Virus record (IMG/VR): IMGVR_UViG_3300010300_000028
Span: 1 to 45,589 of that record
DNA length: 45,589 nucleotides
From: a virus
Reading direction: 5' to 3' (one strand)
Under the pieces are notes generated by a model. It had not been told where the DNA came from, searched no databases, and saw only the letters and a program-made list of their open reading frames with translations. Positions 2 through 21,550 of the stretch are shown piece by piece. Each line of letters opens with the position of its first letter. Positions within the stretch are counted from its first letter, which is position 1. The position numbers and the translations under genes are program-made.

Positions 2-1069
2 CTTTCTATCCGTCTCTGGGATAAACCTAGAAGAGTATGGACTGATAAAGTTTATGTCTGGGATCAGGGTCAGATAGATACCAATGCTAACTCCTCCAAC
101 GGTCAAGCAGTAGAGTGGAATAGCATCTACTATGATGGTCAAGAGTGGGCAGACAATCAGGGTTACAATGGTAACTTCTATGAGAGGAATACTAACCGAC
201 GTGGACATGTCATGAGTTCCAACATCGATGGTGAAGGAAACTTCAATGGCAATCCAAACATCAGAGGTGGTCGTGGTATCTTCTACAATGCACTGTTTGA
301 ATATGGTAGAGGTCTGATCTGTAAACCAGTTCTTGATAATGAGAATCTCAGGACGTATGTTCACATGTCTAACACCCATGGTTTCATGGCATGGTACACT
401 CAGTTCAAGGCGGGTAGTGGTAGTAACTTCAACTCAGCAATGCAGACTATCGATAACTACTATGCTTATGGTATCAATCTGAGCACCGATGGATTCCCAC
501 AAGGAGCCATGCCTACCAGTAATGGACAGTACAGTAAGATGTCATTCATGCATGACTATCGACTGGGTGAGTATGGTTCTAAGCAGAACTCGACAGATGT
601 TGGTGGTAGTGGTAAGATACGTGTGGCATTCTGGCCATATACAGTGATGCCATCTCACTTGCCTGCGGGTACTCAGAGATACTCTAACTCTATCTACTGG
701 GCATGTGGTGTTGAGATCATGGATGTCATCAATGAAGGGTACGCATATGGTGTTGGACAAACGTTCGACTTAGTATGGCCACCTATTCAGGATGAGTCTG
801 ATGACTATCAGGACCTCTTTGGTTCTCAAACACCTTTCTTCCCTAGGGACGTAGGTGCTAACGTCTTACCTGGTCACCCAGATAAATTACCTAAAAAGAT
901 TAGGGTACAGACTGTCGGTGAGGATCCTGATGATAGATTCAACAACTCCTACTCTCCTAAGGAATTGTTCTATCAAGAATCACATAACAGGAGTTCTAAC
1001 CTCTGGTATCTTTGCCAGAAGACAAAGGACCGTGTTAAATTTAGAATTGAAATTGAGGAAGTTTACTAA
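2..1069 (+). CDS. Virion structural protein, C-terminal part (5' end outside window)
   Basis: The reading frame is open from base 2 to the stop at 1067-1069, so the gene enters from upstream; an internal ATG at 212 is not a credible start because codons before it are open and similar in composition. The visible 355 residues are rich in Asn, Gly, Tyr and Trp and have no Cys-based or nucleotide-binding motifs, as expected of a beta-rich tail or baseplate protein. The position ahead of the accessory block fits the end of a structural operon in cyanomyoviruses, where baseplate wedge genes such as gp8 lie, but I cannot match it to T4 gp8 by eye. The downstream gene starts on its stop codon (TAATG). 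Confidence 0.6.
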   Translation, partial: LSIRLWDKPRRVWTDKVYVWDQGQIDTNANSSNGQAVEWNSIYYDGQEWADNQGYNGNFYERNTNRRGHVMSSNIDGEGNFNGNPNIRGGRGIFYNALFEYGRGLICKPVLDNENLRTYVHMSNTHGFMAWYTQFKAGSGSNFNSAMQTIDNYYAYGINLSTDGFPQGAMPTSNGQYSKMSFMHDYRLGEYGSKQNSTDVGGSGKIRVAFWPYTVMPSHLPAGTQRYSNSIYWACGVEIMDVINEGYAYGVGQTFDLVWPPIQDESDDYQDLFGSQTPFFPRDVGANVLPGHPDKLPKKIRVQTVGEDPDDRFNNSYSPKELFYQESHNRSSNLWYLCQKTKDRVKFRIEIEEVY

Positions 1070-13052: not shown

Positions 13053-13519
13053 GCATCTTCAACGACGTTAAAGAACTAGCAGGAGGGAGCAAGCAGTCTA
13101 AGGACTGGTATAGGTCTCAGGTATTCTATGGGTTGGAAGACTCAAAAGGATTCAAGGTAGGTGACGTTATATTCTTTGCATACTCTGCGGCAACCAAAGA
13201 TCTGCCATTCTATGACAAGTACCCGATGGTACTGATCACAGATATTGACATGGCAAACCAGCAGTTCTCTGGTGGAAACATACATTATCTTAGACCTAGC
13301 ACCAGAATATCTGTTGCTAAATCTTGGGGCGGGGGATCCGTATCATATCCTCGTCGCTGCCACCATAAATACTTTATGTCAAATGCAAGTAATATCAAGA
13401 CGGTCTCATCTGCTGACCTTAAAGATATGAAGTATCCGCTCCCTTTGGAGCAATTTACTATGAATGTTGTGGGTCGATATCTTGACGTTCCTAGTTCCAT
13501 CATTTGGAGTAGACAATAG
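13049..13519 (+). CDS. Conserved structural or assembly protein, unassigned
   Basis: 156 residues, ATGA overlap with gene 4. A compact domain with YDKYPMVLITDID, then FSGGNIHYLRPSTRISVA, a pattern seen in small T4-like phage proteins next to tail-completion genes; I cannot name it safely. No membrane segment. Its stop overlaps the GTG of the next gene (TAGTG). By position it should act in head-tail completion or tube assembly. Confidence 0.7.
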   Translation: MSIFNDVKELAGGSKQSKDWYRSQVFYGLEDSKGFKVGDVIFFAYSAATKDLPFYDKYPMVLITDIDMANQQFSGGNIHYLRPSTRISVAKSWGGGSVSYPRRCHHKYFMSNASNIKTVSSADLKDMKYPLPLEQFTMNVVGRYLDVPSSIIWSRQ

Positions 13520-14256
13520 TGGGAAGTCCCAATAGATTTAATACATTCAGAGATCTGGTTGCTACTAATGCCCTGGCACCAGCAACCACTAACCTGTTTC
13601 AAATTATGATTCCTGCACCTCCCATATTCGGTAACGGTGGTAATGGTGCAGTGTCTGGTGGTCGTATTAAAAGAGTCTATGAGACTATCAACTACTATGC
13701 TTCTTCTGTTACTACACCAAGTAGAGCATTGACGACAAGCGAAATCAATAACTATGGTATGATGCGTCGCTTCGCCACAGGTCAGACTAACTCGGAGATT
13801 ACTATCTCATTCTTGGTCACAAAGGACCAGATGCATAGAGACTTCTTTGAAGCATGGTTACACTCTGCTGCTTCTGACTCTGATAATAGCGTAGCATTCT
13901 ATGATGATTATGTTGTTGATTTGCAGATCGTCAAATGGGAGCATGGTGCTAACTTTAAGTTGAAGCAGAATAGAGATAATAGCAAAAAAGGAATGCATCC
14001 GATGCAAGCAACTGGTGTGTGGAAACTGTTTGGTGCATTCCCCACTAACATCAGCACTCAAACGTTTGATAACGAACAGACTGGACTTCTGCAAATGGAT
14101 ATTCAGTTCTACTTCGAGCGTTACAGATTCGACCAAGTATCTCCCAAGACCCTGAAAACGAAGGGTGGTAGAGCAGAAACATTCACGTTTAGTGAAGTTA
14201 GAACCAGAGTAGAAGGTTCTGGTAACCCCGATGTACAGAGATTCAGCATCGGATAA
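13519..14256 (+). CDS. 54: Baseplate tail-tube initiator gp54-like protein
   Basis: 245 residues from GTG at 13519. The middle resembles tail-tube/gp54 proteins: SSVTTPSRALTT, then RRFATGQTNSEITISFL and FFEAWLHSA, close in pattern to the T4 gp54 segment with ITGRELDPLVISFRMD and MQDWVNS. The C-terminal LLQMDIQFYFERYRFD is the usual beta-hairpin of tube-fold proteins. gp54 caps the hub-gp48 complex and nucleates the tube. A tail-tube gp19 relative is the alternative. Confidence 0.75.
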   Translation: MGSPNRFNTFRDLVATNALAPATTNLFQIMIPAPPIFGNGGNGAVSGGRIKRVYETINYYASSVTTPSRALTTSEINNYGMMRRFATGQTNSEITISFLVTKDQMHRDFFEAWLHSAASDSDNSVAFYDDYVVDLQIVKWEHGANFKLKQNRDNSKKGMHPMQATGVWKLFGAFPTNISTQTFDNEQTGLLQMDIQFYFERYRFDQVSPKTLKTKGGRAETFTFSEVRTRVEGSGNPDVQRFSIG

Positions 14257-14290: not shown

Positions 14291-14992
14291 ATGCCTTTAC
14301 CTAAACTTGTAGTGCCTGATTACGAGTGTAAACTCCCTGTCAGTGGTACTAAGGTCACATACCGACCGTTTCTTGTAAAAGAAGAAAAACTCCTCTATCT
14401 CGCGATGGAGTCCCAGAACGAGAAGGAGATGATTCGCGCAGTGAAGCAAATCCTTAAAGCATGTACCAACGTTCCTAATGTTGAGAAACTTGCCACGTTT
14501 GAGATCGAGTATCTTTTCTTGAAGATCAGATCCAAAGCAGTTGGTGAAGTTAGTGAATTCAAAGTAACATGTCAAGATGATGGAGAGACTCAGGTTGATG
14601 TTCAACTGAATCTCGATGAGATTGAAGTCAATGTTCCTAAGGATCACAAGAAGATCGTCAAACTCACTGATACTGTCAAGGTACAGATGAGGTATCCTTC
14701 ACTCGATGCATTCATCGACACCAACATGAAGGAAGATCCTGACATTGAAGATGTCTTTGAACTTGCTGCCGACTGCATTGAAAAAGTATACGATGGAGAT
14801 GAAACCTATGAGGCTTTCACTAAGAAAGAAGCAAAGGATTTCCTCGGTGAGATGAATAGTGAACAGTTCCAATCTATTCAAAAGTTCTTCGACACAATGC
14901 CTAAACTCAGGCATGAGTTCGTGGTAACGAATCCTAAAACCAAGGTGGATAACACCATCATCCTGGAAGGACTCGCGGCTTTTTTCGCGTAG
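14291..14992 (+). CDS. 26: Baseplate hub assembly protein gp26 (T4 family)
   Basis: 233 residues. The start LPKLVVPDYECKLPVSG.KVTYRPF and the KEEKLLYLAMES segment are typical of the T4 gp26 baseplate family, and the C-terminal half is helical and acidic. gp26 is needed for hub assembly; its place before gp51 and the giant tail proteins mirrors tail assembly chaperones that precede tape-measure genes in other phages. A slippery T TTT TTC lies two codons before the stop (see frameshift site). Confidence 0.88.
   Translation: MPLPKLVVPDYECKLPVSGTKVTYRPFLVKEEKLLYLAMESQNEKEMIRAVKQILKACTNVPNVEKLATFEIEYLFLKIRSKAVGEVSEFKVTCQDDGETQVDVQLNLDEIEVNVPKDHKKIVKLTDTVKVQMRYPSLDAFIDTNMKEDPDIEDVFELAADCIEKVYDGDETYEAFTKKEAKDFLGEMNSEQFQSIQKFFDTMPKLRHEFVVTNPKTKVDNTIILEGLAAFFA
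14980..14986 (+). other. Probable programmed -1 frameshift site joining gp26 and gp51
   Basis: T TTT TTC in the gp26 frame, a standard X XXY YYZ heptamer, followed by GCG and the TAG stop. A -1 slip puts the ribosome in the gp51 frame, which is open from there through the gp51 ATG (CGC GTA GCG TTA ATG), giving a 298-residue gp26-gp51 fusion. A Shine-Dalgarno-like GGAAGGA at 14965-14971 lies 8 bases upstream, the arrangement that stimulates -1 shifting in dnaX. Downstream small hairpins (15001-15015; palindrome 15035-15048) could add to it. Confidence 0.7.
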
Positions 14993-14997
14993 CGTTA

Positions 14998-15186
14998 ATG
15001 CATGATAGTCTCATGAACTTGTTCAAGACTAACTTTGCATTAATGCAACACCACAAATACTCACTAACTGAGTTAGAAGACATGATCCCTTGGGAAAGGG
15101 ATGTTTACGTGAATCTACTTATAGCATATCTACAAGAAGAAGAGCGCGAACGTGCCAAGCAAAAACAAGGTGGATCATTCCTATAA
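14998..15186 (+). CDS. 51: Baseplate hub assembly protein gp51-like
   Basis: 62 residues, helical, with a SLTELEDMIPWERDVYVNLL core and a Glu/Lys/Gln-rich C-terminus. The size, the WERD..V.LL pattern and the place directly after gp26 fit the T4 gp51 hub assembly protein and tail chaperone C-terminal domains such as lambda T. It may be made both alone (ATG at 14998) and fused to gp26 by frameshift. The next gene starts on its stop (TAATG). Confidence 0.75.
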   Translation: MHDSLMNLFKTNFALMQHHKYSLTELEDMIPWERDVYVNLLIAYLQEEERERAKQKQGGSFL

Positions 15187-18100
15187 TGGCAGCAACGATC
15201 AGAAAATTTGTAACCATTAAACCCCAGTTTGGGTCAGACGAGTTAGGCAAACAGTTTAAGTCACAAACGTTTGCCTTCAATCGTCTTGGTGTGGTTCTGA
15301 CTGACATTGGTCTGCTAACAAAAGAATTCAAAGAAGTAGTAACAACATACTCTGATTCTGTACTCGCTTTCCAAGAAAGAGAGAAGGAAGTTACAGAAAA
15401 AGAGCATAAGCATAAGGTAGAGATAATTGAAGCCCAGGAAGACATGCTGGGCAAGAAGAAAGGATTGCAGCAGGATAAACTTGCAGAAGAGAAGCAAGAA
15501 GGACTGAGTGCAAAGAAAGAAGAGAAGATAGGTGAGGAGGAAGCAAAGAAGGAGAAGAAATCTAAGTTTGGATGGTTGAAGAACCTGTTCAGTCCCATGA
15601 AGATGCTCATGGGTGGACTGATCAAGTTGGTTGCTCCATTCCTTGCTCTGGGTGTACTAGACTGGTTATCCAAACCAGAAAACTTAGAGAAGATCAAGAC
15701 ACTCTTGAAGTTCTTCAAGGGTATATGGGATCTTGCTCGATGGTTTACCAAGTGGGGGATGACTCAGGTCCTTGATGGGATCACGAAAGTATTTGGTAAT
15801 GATCCTGACAAGAGTGCCGTTGAGAATGGTCTTGATAAGGTATTTGGTGTTCTGCAAATCGTTGCAGGATTAGCAAGTATCTTTGTAGGATCTCGTATCC
15901 TAATGCCCTGGAAGTTGATTGGCGACTTCAAGGCGATGCGTAAGATCGGTGAAGCATTCCGAAAGTCGCAAACACCGAGAAGTCGTGGCGGTGGCGGTGG
16001 TGGAGGATCGAGAGATAGTTCTGGTAGAAGACTAACTGCACGAGAGAGATATAGAAGAAGATTTGGTGATAGAGCTGCTAGAAGAAGATTCGGTCGTGGT
16101 GGTCGTCGTGGTCTAGGTGGGGTCGCTGGTGCTCTGTGTCCTAATCCGTTGGATCTGTTACCTGCTGGTGCAGATGATGCTACTAAGAGAGCAGTTGCTC
16201 AGAATGCTGATGATGTAGCGAAGAAGACTGGCGCTGAGTTTGCAGAACAAAGTAGCAAGAAGGTAGCATCCGAAGCAGCAGAAGAGGTAGCAACCAGCAA
16301 GGGCGTCATGGGCGCTCTGGGTGACCTATTTGGTAAAGGTCAGAGACTTGCAGGTCGAGCAGTCGATGCTACTGTAACTGGTGCAAAGGCAGTTGGTTCA
16401 TTTACTGTTGGTGCATTCCAAAATCTAAACAAGTGGTTTGCTGAGGGTGGCGAGAGACTGATCGGTGGTGTCAAGAGCATGGGTCAGGGTATTTGGGACT
16501 TCGGTGCCAAAGCAGGAAAGATGATTGGTGATGTTGCAGAACTGGCGAAGAATCCTGCTGCGCTTCGCGACAAGGCGATGGCGAAGGTCAAGGACTTTGT
16601 TGGTCCTATCCTAGAAAAGAATCCTATTGGTAAGAAGGTCAAGGATCTCGCCAACGCCCCACCGAAGGGTCCTTTTGGTGGTATCAAGATGGACAAGGTG
16701 AAAGAATCCATCGGTGGTGCTATTAAGGCAGGATTCCAGAACCCTGGATTCAAGAACCTGCGTGAGTTCTTGAAAGCAGCAAAAGCAAATGCTAAGATCG
16801 GTGGTGTTGATAAGATCGTTGCCACTGTCCTAGCACTCATGGACTATGGTATGTTTGGTGAATCACCTATTAACGCTTTACTTAAAGCATTAGGTGGTCT
16901 GCTAGGTTACTCTGCTGGTTTTGCTATTGGTGCTCCGTTTGGTGGTGTACCTGGTTTCATCACTGGTATGGCAGGTGGTTTCGCTGGTGAGTGGGCAGCA
17001 GAACAGTTGTTGGGTCTCCTTTATAAGATCCCCTGGTTGTCTGAGACTGATGACCCGATCGCTAAGATGATCGGTGGTGACTTTGCACAGAGAAAACTGA
17101 TCCGCGATCCTAACGGTGGATTCCCTGGTGAAGATGCACTGCTATCAGCAGCAGAGTCTGGTGATACTGGTGAACCCATGACTCTCCCTGAGATGGCAGT
17201 GGGTGGTGCTGTAAGAGCACACAATAAGATGGCGAAGAAGATGGTCGATCCCATGGTGATGAGCACCAAGAAGTCGGCAAAAGATCCTGTAAGAGATTGG
17301 GGTAAGTTTGCTTCTGGTGGTTCTGTCAATGGTAGATTGCCTGAGGATCAACTAGCATCGATTGGTGGTGGACATAAACTCGCCAAAGATGTCGCGCCTA
17401 AGTTCAAGGCGATGATGGCAAAGGCATCAGAAGATGGATTTAAGATGGGTTCTGCATTCAGAATCAACTCATCTTATCGTACATACGAGAAGCAAGCACA
17501 ACTTTATAGAGAACTTGGACCTGGCACTGCTGCTGCCCCTGGTACATCTAACCATGGTCTAGGTAAGGCAGTTGACCTCTGGTTCACCAATGGTGCATAC
17601 AAGTGGTTGAGGATGAATGCTGGAACATATGGATTCAAGCAGATTCCTGGATATGAGACAGACAATCCTGATGGGCATGAGGCATGGCACTGGGAGAATC
17701 TGACTGGTGGTGGTAGCACTGATGGATCTGGCAACTATACTGCACCAGGATCTACGACACAGACTGCTAGCGATTCCAGCAGTTCTAATACTGGTGGTAC
17801 GGATACTGCTAACCAGACTGCTGAACCCACAATAGATGCCAAGACCGAGTATCTGTCAGCACAGAAGATGGCAGAGTTCTTTGCTCAGAAACTAGGTATC
17901 CTTGGAAGCTATGCTAAGGACGCTGATGAAATGGGCGGTGGAACACCTAGTCAAGGTATCTTTGATCCCACTCCGCCACAAGCACCTCCGTCTGTTGCTC
18001 CTCCTGCCCCACAACCATCCACACCTCTTTCTGATCTCAAACCAGTCAAAACTAATGAGACAGAGGCACTAAATACTAAGATAGACAAACTGAGTACATT

Positions 18101-18248
18101 ATCTGTCGATAAGACACGTCGTGAGAAGGAACCTAAGACTAATCAACTAATGGTCGCGGTCCAACCTGTCGTTCAGACACAAGTCATTGGTGGCGGTAAG
18201 AAACAATCCGCTGGCGGTCCATCTGCATCTCCCCTCCTTAACGGTTAA
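15186..18248 (+). CDS. Giant tail protein (tape-measure-like) with M15 peptidase domain
   Basis: 1020 residues; start at 15186 (TAATG) rather than the out-of-context ATG at 15090. Order: N-terminal domain; charged coiled coil about 65-130; hydrophobic helical part 130-270 with the LDWLSKPENLEKIK motif; Gly/Arg linker; long helical Ala/Gly/Lys part; hydrophobic segment about 560-610; then a D-Ala-D-Ala carboxypeptidase-like (VanY/M15) domain about 740-845 with SNHGLGKAVD (His790, Asp797) and Glu832...His835 zinc and catalytic residues; Pro/Ser tail. It should cleave peptidoglycan cross-links during injection. Position after the gp26/gp51 pair suggests a tape-measure role. Paralogous to the next gene in the N-terminal third. 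Confidence 0.85.
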   Translation: MAATIRKFVTIKPQFGSDELGKQFKSQTFAFNRLGVVLTDIGLLTKEFKEVVTTYSDSVLAFQEREKEVTEKEHKHKVEIIEAQEDMLGKKKGLQQDKLAEEKQEGLSAKKEEKIGEEEAKKEKKSKFGWLKNLFSPMKMLMGGLIKLVAPFLALGVLDWLSKPENLEKIKTLLKFFKGIWDLARWFTKWGMTQVLDGITKVFGNDPDKSAVENGLDKVFGVLQIVAGLASIFVGSRILMPWKLIGDFKAMRKIGEAFRKSQTPRSRGGGGGGGSRDSSGRRLTARERYRRRFGDRAARRRFGRGGRRGLGGVAGALCPNPLDLLPAGADDATKRAVAQNADDVAKKTGAEFAEQSSKKVASEAAEEVATSKGVMGALGDLFGKGQRLAGRAVDATVTGAKAVGSFTVGAFQNLNKWFAEGGERLIGGVKSMGQGIWDFGAKAGKMIGDVAELAKNPAALRDKAMAKVKDFVGPILEKNPIGKKVKDLANAPPKGPFGGIKMDKVKESIGGAIKAGFQNPGFKNLREFLKAAKANAKIGGVDKIVATVLALMDYGMFGESPINALLKALGGLLGYSAGFAIGAPFGGVPGFITGMAGGFAGEWAAEQLLGLLYKIPWLSETDDPIAKMIGGDFAQRKLIRDPNGGFPGEDALLSAAESGDTGEPMTLPEMAVGGAVRAHNKMAKKMVDPMVMSTKKSAKDPVRDWGKFASGGSVNGRLPEDQLASIGGGHKLAKDVAPKFKAMMAKASEDGFKMGSAFRINSSYRTYEKQAQLYRELGPGTAAAPGTSNHGLGKAVDLWFTNGAYKWLRMNAGTYGFKQIPGYETDNPDGHEAWHWENLTGGGSTDGSGNYTAPGSTTQTASDSSSSNTGGTDTANQTAEPTIDAKTEYLSAQKMAEFFAQKLGILGSYAKDADEMGGGTPSQGIFDPTPPQAPPSVAPPAPQPSTPLSDLKPVKTNETEALNTKIDKLSTLSVDKTRREKEPKTNQLMVAVQPVVQTQVIGGGKKQSAGGPSASPLLNG

Positions 18249-21200
18249 TGGCAAAGATAAGATTTTACAAATATGTAACTCCCCCATCCACAGGTGGTAA
18301 GGGTATCACTGTCATTATTGATGGTAAGAAAGTTACGCAACCCACAGATGGTGCTGTAAAGAATATCAAGGCAATCAATAGTCTGGGTGCTACCACCAAC
18401 TCGATTGGTGTGGTCATGGAGGAGATGACTACATCCATGAAGGGTTTCATGGGCACTTACATGAGGACACAGGAACAGATCCTGAATCTTCGTGAGGATC
18501 ATATTGATGATGAGAAGAAGAGACTGAAAGATGCAAAGAGAGCGAAGAAGAGGGCAGAAGGATTAGAGCAGGATAAGAAAGCAGAGGACTTACAAGAAGG
18601 AAAGAGAGATAAGAAATCTACATTTGGTGAGAAGTCGAAGAAGGTTGCTGCTGGTGCCTTCGGATTCTTCAAGGGACTGGCATCACTAGTCAGTGGTCTG
18701 TTTAGGACACTGATTCTATATGAAATTCTTGATTGGTTCTCTAAACCAGAGAACATAGAGAAGATCAAGAAGATGCTCGAAGCAATCAAGGCGATTGGTA
18801 CTTGGTTGAAGGATACCTATGGATTCCTGATCAACATGGGTCTGGATGGTATCGTAGCATTCATGGAGAATCCTTTCAGTTTTGAAGGTGTCTTCGGTAT
18901 CATCAAATTTATAACAGCACTGGGTCTTATCTTTGCACCTGCTGCTGTTGCTAAACTAGGACTTGGACTTCTGTTCAAGTTGATGGGTAGTCTTGGGTCC
19001 AAAGGATTAGCGAATGCTGTCTTTGGATTCATGGGTAAATTGGGGATGGCAGTCTTCAATGTGATGAAAGGTGTCGTCAGTTTCCTTGTGGGAACTGGAT
19101 GGGGATGGGCACTGATGGGTATTGCTGGCATCGGAGCACTAGGTATTGCTCTGGGCAACAAGGCAAACACCCCAGGCGTAGAGAAAGGTAAGACAGAACT
19201 AGATGAAACCTCAGAGAATGGTGGCATGGTTGGCGCTCCTATGAGCGGTGACATGTTCTCCGATGAGGGTCTGGACGAGAAGGCAGACGGTGGTAAGGTT
19301 AAGAAGAAAGCAGCAGGTGGTGGATGGATTACTGGACCTATGTCTGGTTATCCTGTATCACTAGATGGTGGTGCATCTACATCCTTCATTGGTCATGGTA
19401 CTGAGTGGGTAGGCAGACGCTCCGCTGGTGGTGATGCATTCGTGATTCCGTTCAACACACCTGCAACTTCTGGTGGAAGAAACGGTCTGACCAGTCTGAG
19501 AATGCAGCAGGCAAAGGCAGGAGGGTACAGTCTCCCTACCTTCGCAAAGGGTGGTAAACTGTCTGGTACAACAAACCCACGCCGTGATGGTTCTCAGGAA
19601 GAGAATCGTCTGGCACAGCACGATGGCAGACCCATGTCGATGGGTGGTCGTGTCCTACAAGCATTAGCACAGGGTGGTAAGATCTTCCTCCACTGGACTG
19701 CTGGTGGCGGTAACTTCAAACAGTCAGGTAAGTATCACTCTATTGTTCAGGGTGATGGTAGCATCTATCGTGCTCACCCATATGACCAGAGATCTGGTGT
19801 TGCACACACTTATCTAAGAAACGGTCAAGGTATTGGTATGGCAGTTGCTGCCATGGCAGGATCTGGCGGTAATTATGTATGGCCTTCTGGTAAACAGATT
19901 TCATCTTTGTCAGGAGAGATCGCTGACATCGCTAAGAAGCGTGGTTGGAAAGAAAGTGATATTAATATCAAGAACATTATGACCCATGCTGAGGCAGCAT
20001 CTGGTAAAGATGGACAACTGCCTGGCAATGACAACTATGGTCCTACTGCATGGGGTGGTGATGGCGCACGTTGGGACTTGTGGCACCTGACTAAGGATGG
20101 TGCGAAAGGTTCTGGTGGTCATATCATTCGTAACCAAGTAAGAAAGATGCTTGGTATGAAACAGATTCCTGTTCCTCCCGATGCAGGATCTCCTAACCCC
20201 GCCAAAGCAGCAGCAAGTAAAGGTAGCACCAAGAACAATGCCACCAATACTAACAACCAGTCAGGTAGTAGTGAGGGTAGCACTACTAATACTTTTGACT
20301 CTACTAGTTCATATCTGTCTGCCGAGAAGATGGCAGCATTCTTCACTGGTAATGCTGGACTCATTGGAGACTATGCTGCTGATGCCAAAGAAATGGCAAC
20401 AGGTGGTACACTCAACTTAGGTGTCTCTGGTTCTTTCTGTCCCTGGTGTAAGTCTGGTAAGAGATATGCATCTGGTGGTGTGTATGCTCCTGTCTTAGAT
20501 CTGATCGCAAGAGAAGAGTCTCGCGGTAAGTGGGATGCTATGGCACCTGGTACGACACTTCCTGGTGCAACAGACATGACAATCGCACAGGTTGCTGCGA
20601 AGGCAACAGGTGCCGTAGGTAAGTGGCAGAACCTCCCTAGATACTTGGTTGCAAGAGCAAAGGCAGTCGGACTTAATCCGATGACTGATAAGTATAATGC
20701 TCAGAACCAGACGAAGATTGCTGTTCACCTGATCGAGAAAGGACAGGCAGGTGTGACACCTGCAATGATGAAGGACAATCCTCAGGAAGCAATGATCAGA
20801 CTCGCTAAGGTCTGGGCAGCAGTTCCTGTACCTAAGGATATGCAGGGTCACAGAAGAGCAGTCAAGAAAGGTGAGTCATACTATGCAGGTGTGGGTAGTA
20901 ATGCTGCTCACATTGGTGTTGATGAGATGATGAAAGCATTAGGTGGTGGTGGTTATCCTAAGTTTGATCCTAATAAGAAGTATGTGACTGGTGATATTGT
21001 CAATAAAGATGGTAAGTTAAGAATCTTCGACGGCATGGGATGGGGTGACTATGAAGGTGGTGGTCCTACTGCTCAGGGAACTGCTAATGATACACAAGTA
21101 TCTTCAAACACTGGTGGTGTCTCAGTTGATCCTGTGACTGGTGAGGAAACAGCACATGGTGAGGAGAAAAAGAATCCCATGGAAGCACTCATGGGCAAGA

Positions 21201-21550
21201 TGGACATCCTCAAAAAGTATGTTCAGGATGCTCAGGAGATGGGTAGTGGAACGCCGTCTGGTGGTTTGGCAGCAGGTATCGATCAGTCTGACCTCAGACC
21301 CAGGAGTGGTGATCAACTCGCCGCAAAGCAGAAGGCAGAGGATGCAGCAAAGGCAGAAGCGGGTGAGAATGTTAGCCTAACTAGTACACAACTCCCTGCT
21401 GCTGGTGGTAACTCATCCCCACCACAGCAGGCAGCAGCAGAAGTAGACATGCCTGCTTCTGGACCATATGTGATTCCAGCGAATGCATATGCTAGACCTA
21501 GATTCGGTCTCACCGCCGAGATCTTTGCAGAACCAGTTAGTATCGCGTAA
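18248..21550 (+). CDS. Giant tail protein with amidase and lysozyme-like domains
   Basis: 1100 residues, TAATG-coupled. N-terminal third resembles the previous protein: coiled coil about 80-130, then hydrophobic helices with ILDWFSKPENIEKIK. A Gly-rich part holds GHGTEWVGRRSAGGDAF, like the C-terminal end of tape-measure proteins. An Amidase_2-like domain spans about 475-625 (His482 in FLHWT, His580 in THAEA, then RWDLWHL). A lambda-lysozyme-like domain spans about 745-900 (LDLIAREESRGKWDAM with Glu756/757, GAVGKWQNLP, AKVWAAVP). So one protein carries two peptidoglycan-cleaving domains, probably used at host entry. Linker YLSAEKMAAFF...EMATGG recurs from the previous gene. Confidence 0.87.
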   Translation: MAKIRFYKYVTPPSTGGKGITVIIDGKKVTQPTDGAVKNIKAINSLGATTNSIGVVMEEMTTSMKGFMGTYMRTQEQILNLREDHIDDEKKRLKDAKRAKKRAEGLEQDKKAEDLQEGKRDKKSTFGEKSKKVAAGAFGFFKGLASLVSGLFRTLILYEILDWFSKPENIEKIKKMLEAIKAIGTWLKDTYGFLINMGLDGIVAFMENPFSFEGVFGIIKFITALGLIFAPAAVAKLGLGLLFKLMGSLGSKGLANAVFGFMGKLGMAVFNVMKGVVSFLVGTGWGWALMGIAGIGALGIALGNKANTPGVEKGKTELDETSENGGMVGAPMSGDMFSDEGLDEKADGGKVKKKAAGGGWITGPMSGYPVSLDGGASTSFIGHGTEWVGRRSAGGDAFVIPFNTPATSGGRNGLTSLRMQQAKAGGYSLPTFAKGGKLSGTTNPRRDGSQEENRLAQHDGRPMSMGGRVLQALAQGGKIFLHWTAGGGNFKQSGKYHSIVQGDGSIYRAHPYDQRSGVAHTYLRNGQGIGMAVAAMAGSGGNYVWPSGKQISSLSGEIADIAKKRGWKESDINIKNIMTHAEAASGKDGQLPGNDNYGPTAWGGDGARWDLWHLTKDGAKGSGGHIIRNQVRKMLGMKQIPVPPDAGSPNPAKAAASKGSTKNNATNTNNQSGSSEGSTTNTFDSTSSYLSAEKMAAFFTGNAGLIGDYAADAKEMATGGTLNLGVSGSFCPWCKSGKRYASGGVYAPVLDLIAREESRGKWDAMAPGTTLPGATDMTIAQVAAKATGAVGKWQNLPRYLVARAKAVGLNPMTDKYNAQNQTKIAVHLIEKGQAGVTPAMMKDNPQEAMIRLAKVWAAVPVPKDMQGHRRAVKKGESYYAGVGSNAAHIGVDEMMKALGGGGYPKFDPNKKYVTGDIVNKDGKLRIFDGMGWGDYEGGGPTAQGTANDTQVSSNTGGVSVDPVTGEETAHGEEKKNPMEALMGKMDILKKYVQDAQEMGSGTPSGGLAAGIDQSDLRPRSGDQLAAKQKAEDAAKAEAGENVSLTSTQLPAAGGNSSPPQQAAAEVDMPASGPYVIPANAYARPRFGLTAEIFAEPVSIA

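Follow-up and report, generated by a model that had tools for sequence, protein, structure and literature searches.

Is the short gp51 that follows gp26 in a marine T4-like phage a gene in its own right, or is it the end of a longer protein that is made when ribosomes change frame at the 3′ end of gp26? The question is raised by a 45,589-nucleotide (nt) stretch of DNA, hereafter the window (IMG/VR virus record IMGVR_UViG_3300010300_000028, positions 1 to 45,589). The DNA comes from a marine T4-like phage. Its gp26 shares 75.5% identity with the counterpart in Synechococcus phage S-WAM1, whose record is assigned to the Kyanoviridae, and the gp26 protein of a 187-kb contig is 99% identical. An earlier note on this DNA had proposed that a programmed −1 frameshift fuses gp26 and gp51. 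Comparison with related phages makes it highly probable that the locus employs programmed −1 ribosomal frameshifting to produce a short and a long tail chaperone. The proposal is supported by the conservation of the slip site, by relatives in which the gp51 frame lacks a start codon, and by the split between phages with one gene and phages that, like T4, have two. The features of the locus are listed below; SD stands for Shine–Dalgarno, TAC for tail assembly chaperone, bp for base pairs, and E for expectation value.

14291–14992, plus strand: gp26-like gene, predicted short chaperone TAC-N, 233 amino acids (PF12322, E 4.4e-69; phrog_150, E 6.6e-76)
14965–14971, plus strand: SD-like GGAAGGA, possible stimulator, 8 nt before the heptamer
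14980–14986, plus strand: −1 slippery heptamer T TTT TTC, in the gp26 frame and in X XXY YYZ phase, kept across relatives
14990–14992, plus strand: gp26-frame stop TAG, beginning 10 nt past the first base of the heptamer
14986–15186, plus strand: −1 frame extension including the stop, C-terminal domain of the predicted 298-residue TAC-NC (phrog_634, E 1.7e-27, over 14998–15183)
14998–15186, plus strand: "gp51" as usually called, 62 amino acids from the ATG at 14998, probably not independently initiated, with no SD sequence upstream
14992–15046, plus strand: predicted imperfect RNA stem-loop with outer 11-bp arms (14992–15002 and 15036–15046), −20.8 kcal/mol for the element alone

A conserved slippery heptamer at the end of gp26

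The 3′ end of the gp26 open reading frame (ORF) reads GCT TTT TTC GCG TAG. The ORF in the −1 frame opens at 14953 and is closed by the stop codon at 15184–15186, and its first ATG, GTG or TTG is the ATG at 14998. A slip on the heptamer would join 232 codons of gp26 to 66 codons of the −1 frame in a product of 298 residues. The coordinates and phase that the earlier note had given for the heptamer were verified, and the ORF map agrees with its claim that the −1 frame is open from the slip site to the end of gp51. The combination of a zero-frame X XXY YYZ heptamer with an open −1 frame is that of a frameshift signal. TTTTTTC occurs four times on the two strands of the window, compared with 6.6 expected occurrences. 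The heptamer by itself is therefore at chance level, and it is its phase together with its conservation across relatives that raises the signal above chance.

When the T4-type two-gene phages are set aside, 178 of the 179 gp26 loci read contain the heptamer in phase. In the first set, 80 related loci were added to the window; after one locus with a truncated gene (L058) had been dropped, T6[C/T/A] in phase and an open −1 frame were found in all 80 untruncated loci, the window included (72 TTTTTTC, 7 TTTTTTT, and 1 TTTTTTA). The second set was fetched with a gp26 protein profile, blind to the heptamer, and 79 of its proteins were new; the heptamer, always TTTTTTC, and the −1 frame are present in 80 of 80 loci. 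Among the named phages with one gp26 copy, 14 of 15 contain the heptamer. It is also present in AS-yj, S-PM2, Aeh1, and Cronobacter S13, which were read after the statistics and are counted in the heptamer tally only. Loss of the heptamer or of the frame offset in close relatives, which the earlier note had named as evidence that would speak against the frameshift, was not observed; both are kept at the junctions.

The sets include near-identical contigs, and the 174 tabulated rows contain 147 distinct ones. In these 147 rows, the codon preceding the T-run specifies Ala, Ser, Asn, Asp, Gly, or Arg, yet it ends in T. The pattern xxT TTT TTN is found in 41 of 41 representatives, which are 75% clusters built from heptamer-bearing rows only, but in just 1 of 44 other Phe-Phe pairs of the same genes. 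The probability of about 1e-20 that is obtained for the conservation of the heptamer by treating sites as independent is too extreme, given the relatedness of the rows. A chance origin of the heptamer was rejected in view of its in-phase conservation among gp26 loci.

The exceptional locus, which counts against the frameshift, is that of Vibrio phage 207E48.1 (L094:2941–3845). This phage has one gp26 copy, contains no heptamer, and reads CTT TTT CGG TAA TG; it could use another slip motif or coupling, and was excluded from all codon, fold, and selection statistics. Its −1 frame is still open for 176 nt, and an ATG overlaps the stop codon.

The two-gene layout of T4-type phages

The T6 heptamer is absent from all 11 phages with a separate full-length gp51: T4, PG7, Kp 15882-6-3, CHI14, MX01, fHyAci03, Whisky, kvi, Rgz1, AhMtk13a, and RB43. 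The first five of these retain the Phe-Phe pair as TTC TTT, the form found in T4, or TTC TTC, with the heptamer gone. The −1 frame after gp26 is also open in 8 of the 11 two-gene phages because of the overlap with gene 25, and therefore an open −1 frame alone is no evidence of frameshifting. The TTTAAAG of RB43 gp26 was considered as an XXXYYYZ signal and was not counted, as its −1 frame remains open for just 11 nt past the stop codon.

The 249-residue gp51 of T4 matches phrog_150 over residues 3–248 and phrog_634, the family of the C-terminal domain, over residues 147–246, whereas the phrog_150 match of T4 gp26 ends at profile position 235 of 282. These profile matches indicate that in T4 each of the two products has its own gene, one for the N-terminal part alone and one for the N-terminal part and C-terminal domain in a single ORF. 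The gp26 and gp51 genes of T4 are divergent, on opposite strands (T4 115802–117228; L082:3803–5229), unlike the one-strand reading of the locus described here. The window contains both the PF12322 domain and the gp51 C-terminal domain, as expected of the T4 gp26/gp51 family. It does not have the T4 layout: one PF12322 copy was found in the window, which is a fragment, and one in the related 187-kb contig. In a total of 24 records, PF12322 is present once in 18 (the window, two long contigs, and 15 named phages) and twice in six two-gene phages; the single-copy status was thus tested in the records of 18 of the 179 loci. The heptamer and the T4 two-gene layout are mutually exclusive in the records examined.

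A phylogenetic tree separates the frameshift and two-gene rows by one branch, with 98% support in the Shimodaira–Hasegawa-like approximate likelihood ratio test (midpoint root). The tree was calculated by a quick method from 52 selected rows and has long branches, and its midpoint root gives no order of origin. Both layouts occur inside Straboviridae, with frameshifting in Aeh1, vB_VmeM-32, AS-yj, and S13, and two genes in T4 and others. The spread of the frameshift layout over Kyanoviridae, Pootjesviridae, Emdodecavirus, Menderavirus, and part of Straboviridae suggests that frameshifting is ancestral.

An RNA stem-loop behind the heptamer

The least expected part of the signal, which the earlier note had missed, is the stem-loop. 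It is separated from the heptamer by a 5-nt spacer, as is typical of the downstream structure of a −1 signal, and its inner stem is UAGUCU/AGACUA. The segment 14987–15051 folds with −23.3 kcal/mol (z −5.1 relative to shuffled sequences, with 0 of 200 shuffles as low), and the stem has a z of −5.0 when compared with synonymous codon resampling. Among the 540 stretches of 60 nt that were folded around the gene, only two are this stable, and one of the two lies at the slip site. In the 41 representatives, the mean z at the site is −1.62 (standard error of the mean (sem) 0.27), with 14 of 41 at p ≤ 0.02, compared with −0.20 to −0.37 at six control offsets. The replicate set of 76 loci has a z of −2.49 (sem 0.17), with 46 of 76 at p ≤ 0.02, and values of −0.33, −0.30, and −0.81 at the control offsets. 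Stems at the site exceed what the coding sequence explains; they are common but not universal. A helix of at least 6 bp is present in the scanned range of 112 distinct loci (of 131), and in 61 of them the best one begins 4–9 nt past the heptamer.

Stem sequences differ among lineages, with GCGUUAAUGCA/UGCAUUAAUGC in the window and AGUAUGGCUCA/UGAGUCAUACU, GGUCC/GGACC, and others elsewhere, while the heptamer is constant; the stem of S-PM2 is 14 bp long. Covariation was counted in 67 of the 77 distinct downstream stretches of the replicate set (L109–L118 were left out). An 11-bp stem between positions +6..16 and +26..36 exhibits 38 two-sided changes, compared with 12.4 in shuffled data (0 of 500 as high) and 9 to 30 in slid registers, and one of its pairs occurs as U-A, A-U, C-G, G-C, and G-U. 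A 5-bp stem has 25 two-sided changes, compared with 10.4 in shuffled data (1 of 500 as high) and 5 to 18 in slid registers, one of which has a higher covariation score. The long stem is present in 23 of the 67 sequences, the short one in 21, both in none, and neither in 23.

We lean slightly towards the interpretation that the signal is a cassette, in which the RNA stem would be selected as a stem close behind the heptamer and not for its sequence, and which the T4 branch would have dropped, with the products passing to two genes. Several properties of the stem weigh against the frameshift explanation. The register of the stem shifts from lineage to lineage together with its sequence, and no single structure common to all lineages was found. 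The stem is not significant at p 0.02 in 27 of the 41 representatives and 30 of the 76 replicate loci, and the replicate control offset with z −0.81 (9 of 76 at p 0.02) also leans towards structure. In the window's clade of 13 sequences, covariation is weak: there are 8 two-sided cells compared with 4.9 in shuffled data (13 of 500 as high), the window's own register has 5 compared with 2.9 (50 of 500 as high), and RNAalifold reports one compensatory pair for the clade. A second hairpin with 7-bp arms (ATCCCTT/AAGGGAT) is located at 15085–15102 of the window, in the −1 frame, approximately 100 nt past the slip site.

The SD-like GGAAGGA is located where the earlier note had placed it, 8 nt upstream of the heptamer, and overlies conserved Glu-Gly codons. 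Hybridization with the anti-SD core, relative to synonymous resampling, has a mean z of −0.86 (sem 0.15, n = 41), compared with +0.11 in control windows; the element of the window has a z of −0.26 and is no stronger than the synonymous expectation. A role as stimulator, as in the dnaX example of the note, is weakly supported and is kept as a possibility.

Alternative origins of the proposed fusion

It could be argued that gp51 is translated independently, or by translational coupling, from the ATG at 14998, and that conserved Phe codons gave rise to the T-run as a by-product. The ATG of the window, 5 nt after the gp26 stop and within the 5′ arm of the stem (14992–15002), weighs in favor of such a start and against the frameshift, and in the second set the first ATG is at codon 5–8 in 65 of 77 complete rows. 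No SD sequence was seen upstream of the ATG at 14998, and an SD-like tetramer precedes the first ATG in 2 of 95 loci; the corresponding counts are 54 of 142 for gp26 and 41 of 127 for the start of the long gene that follows. Since such tetramers are present at only part of the latter starts, these phages do not always use an SD sequence, a point in favor of an independent gp51. However, among 142 distinct complete loci, the −1 frame contains no ATG in 47, and none of ATG, GTG, or TTG in 39, when read from where it opens to codon 15 beyond the slip. In loci without an ATG before codon 16, the ratio of nonsynonymous to synonymous polymorphism (pN/pS) of the post-slip stretch is 0.17 in the −1 frame compared with 2.1 and 1.8 in the other frames (9 usable pairs), which indicates purifying selection on the −1 frame of these relatives. 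The residue pattern of the −1 frame is kept right after the slip, as RIAL, RISL, or LIAL in 15 of 41 representatives and in similar form in most others. Furthermore, conserved Phe codons do not by themselves produce the heptamer, as is evident from the other Phe-Phe pairs of gp26 and from the five two-gene phages that retain Phe-Phe. The in-phase heptamer, the two-gene phages without it, and the start-less −1 genes make it most likely that "gp51" of the window is the C-terminal domain of the frameshift product and probably not the separate gene named in the earlier note; we regard its independent translation as very unlikely.

The same fusion would result from transcriptional slippage on the run of six or seven T, adding a base in some of the mRNAs. 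Every heptamer locus has the T-run, which is seven T long in 10 of 147 distinct loci, but it has only six T in 137 of 147, the xxT TTT TTN phase present in 178 loci is not needed by RNA polymerase, and the downstream RNA stem fits a ribosome. This explanation appears even less probable than an independent gp51. No point was found in favor of a sequencing or assembly error or of a decayed single gene, a reading that is refuted by relatives and can be considered practically discounted, because the layout recurs in 178 of 179 loci, which were drawn from numerous separate contigs and isolates, with 147 of the 174 tabulated rows distinct.

The annotation of these phages does not include the frameshift product as a joined coding sequence in any of the 16 annotated heptamer-bearing records inspected, and 6 of the 16 contain no gp51 entry. 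An unannotated gp51 C-terminal domain is located in the −1 frame after gp26 in Aeh1 (L190:3750–3932), S13 (L191:3717–3896), and loci L089, L090, L108, and L083, the records of which list no gp51.

Proposed mechanism and the proteins involved

In the frameshift mechanism, most ribosomes would stop at the TAG at 14990 and release the 233-residue short tail assembly chaperone (gp26, TAC-N). Some ribosomes would be slowed by the stem-loop 5 nt downstream, and perhaps also by contact with the upstream SD-like element, and both tRNA-Phe would slip back by one base on T TTT TTC. Reading of the −1 frame to 15186 would then produce the 298-residue long chaperone (TAC-NC), whose C-terminal domain otherwise carries the annotation gp51. 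If the two forms act as in lambda G/GT, the short one would coat the tape-measure protein, and the long one, made less often, would recruit tube subunits. We infer the slippage itself, its rate, and the partners of the two proteins.

The gp26 protein belongs to the family T4_baseplate (PF12322). Its AlphaFold2 model, calculated from 40 sequences, has a predicted local distance difference test score (pLDDT) of 89.5. The top PDB matches of the model in VIA-align are 3fgx (Z 7.5), 2ob9, which is the HK97 tail assembly chaperone (Z 7.4), and 3klu, YqbN (Z 7.0), followed by a match with Z 2.4; we take 3fgx and 3klu to be prophage chaperones. The three matches cover residues 1–94 of gp26, and the alignment to 2ob9 includes 83 residues with a root-mean-square deviation of 4.2 and a Z below 8. 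A Foldseek search of the PDB alone is at odds with this resemblance: it gave no significant match, with the HK97 chaperone at E 1.5 and chains of DUF198/GTP cyclohydrolase-IB with template modeling scores of approximately 0.13 at the top. When solved structures were searched with the sequence profile of gp26, a single weak match was obtained, THR5 (E 0.0028, profile positions 144–191). The modeled N-terminal domain of gp26 thus appears to resemble the HK97 tail assembly chaperone, which is supportive but not decisive, and the fold match lends support to the claim of the earlier note that gp26 and gp51 are a chaperone pair. A fold search of viral models with the gp26 model (14291–14989) gave 58 matches with E ≤ 0.001, including proteins of Bacillus phage SP-15 and Campylobacter phage CP220 as well as larger uncharacterised phage proteins. 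Judging from these models, members of the chaperone family may occur far outside the T4-like phages.

The genes adjoining the frameshift locus are:

13519–14256, plus strand: tail-tube-like gene directly upstream (phrog_45 tail tube, E 2e-37)
15186–18248, plus strand: next gene, 1020 amino acids, VanY domain (PF02557), tape-measure candidate by position
18248–21550, plus strand: second giant gene, 1100 amino acids, Amidase_2 domain (PF01510), alternative tape-measure candidate

The earlier note had described the genes that follow gp51 as tape-measure-like. Their position agrees with this description, but a family match does not: a PHROG search with the 1020- and 1100-residue proteins gave no tape-measure match, returning "unknown function" and "endolysin" instead. 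The phiM7 neighbor has weak PHROG tape-measure matches (1.8e-5 and 6.5e-5). The two giant genes are plausible tape measures by position and not by family match. They share the PHROG matches phrog_1200, 2588, 17500, and 790 despite their differing hydrolase domains, and are possibly a duplicated tape measure.

Relation to known systems

Pairs of the lambda G/GT type also include E/E+E′ of P2 and gp13/14 of HK97. In lambda, the tape measure is bound by gpG and by gpGT, the less abundant of the two, and the T domain brings the tube subunit; this type of device has been described as widely conserved "except T4" (PMC5009743). Similar to lambda, the locus described here lies beside a tail tube gene and encodes a short form and a predicted frameshifted long form, a likeness of signal and gene order only, and the N-terminal domain of gp26 is predicted to share the fold of the HK97 chaperone. 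By contrast, its poly-T heptamer, its proteins of the T4_baseplate family, and its strong downstream stem-loop differ from lambda G/GT. We assign the device to the chaperone pairs of the lambda G/GT type.

Both gp26 and gp51 of T4 are listed as "hub assembly chaperone" (PMC3004832). The phages studied here resemble T4 in the protein family and in having two products, one with the N-terminal part and one with the C-terminal domain added; unlike them, T4 and the ten other phages use two genes without the T6 heptamer. According to PMC10885494, which cites Vladimirov et al. 2022, some T4-like phages encode the short and the long chaperone in a gene each and do not rely on a frameshift. Since the work of Vladimirov, Gautam and Davidson 2022 on chaperones of T4-like phages is cited in PMC10885494 and PMC12846349, the frameshift device in T4-like phages is probably already in print, and its T4-group version is probably not new in principle. 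In Vandenendeviridae and Andersonviridae, a −1 frameshift has been described at the end of the TAC-N gene with a GTTTTT motif; all genomes examined in that study have an open −1 frame, and the C-terminal part is usually annotated as "hypothetical protein" (PMC12846349). The position of the slip is shared with the phages described here, whereas the slip motif differs; section 3.8.3 of that paper describes no downstream stem, and the likeness noted here is one between the described devices.

Sullivan et al. 2010 noted the short gp51 of cyanophages and the absence of gp51 from Aeh1, and the main text of their paper contains the word "frameshift" 0 times (PMC3037559). The C-terminal domain of Aeh1 has been found here, unannotated, in the −1 frame; both the short cyanophage gp51 and its seeming absence from Aeh1 follow from the frameshift. 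Among the matches listed in a literature search, no title or abstract opening named a cyanophage gp26-gp51 frameshift or, with few subscription journals covered, a downstream stem at the site.

Implications

The novelty of the locus is modest: it is a well-supported example of a known device, with a clear candidate for the RNA stimulator. On comparative grounds, the mechanism is near certain. It explains the truncated look of cyanophage "gp51" and its seeming absence from some T4-like phages, and provides a cheap re-annotation rule for marine phages of a widespread group. Comparison of these phages with T4 offers a way to test what the chaperone ratio does. If the cassette interpretation is true, these phages are a natural before-and-after test of how the ratio of chaperones is set.
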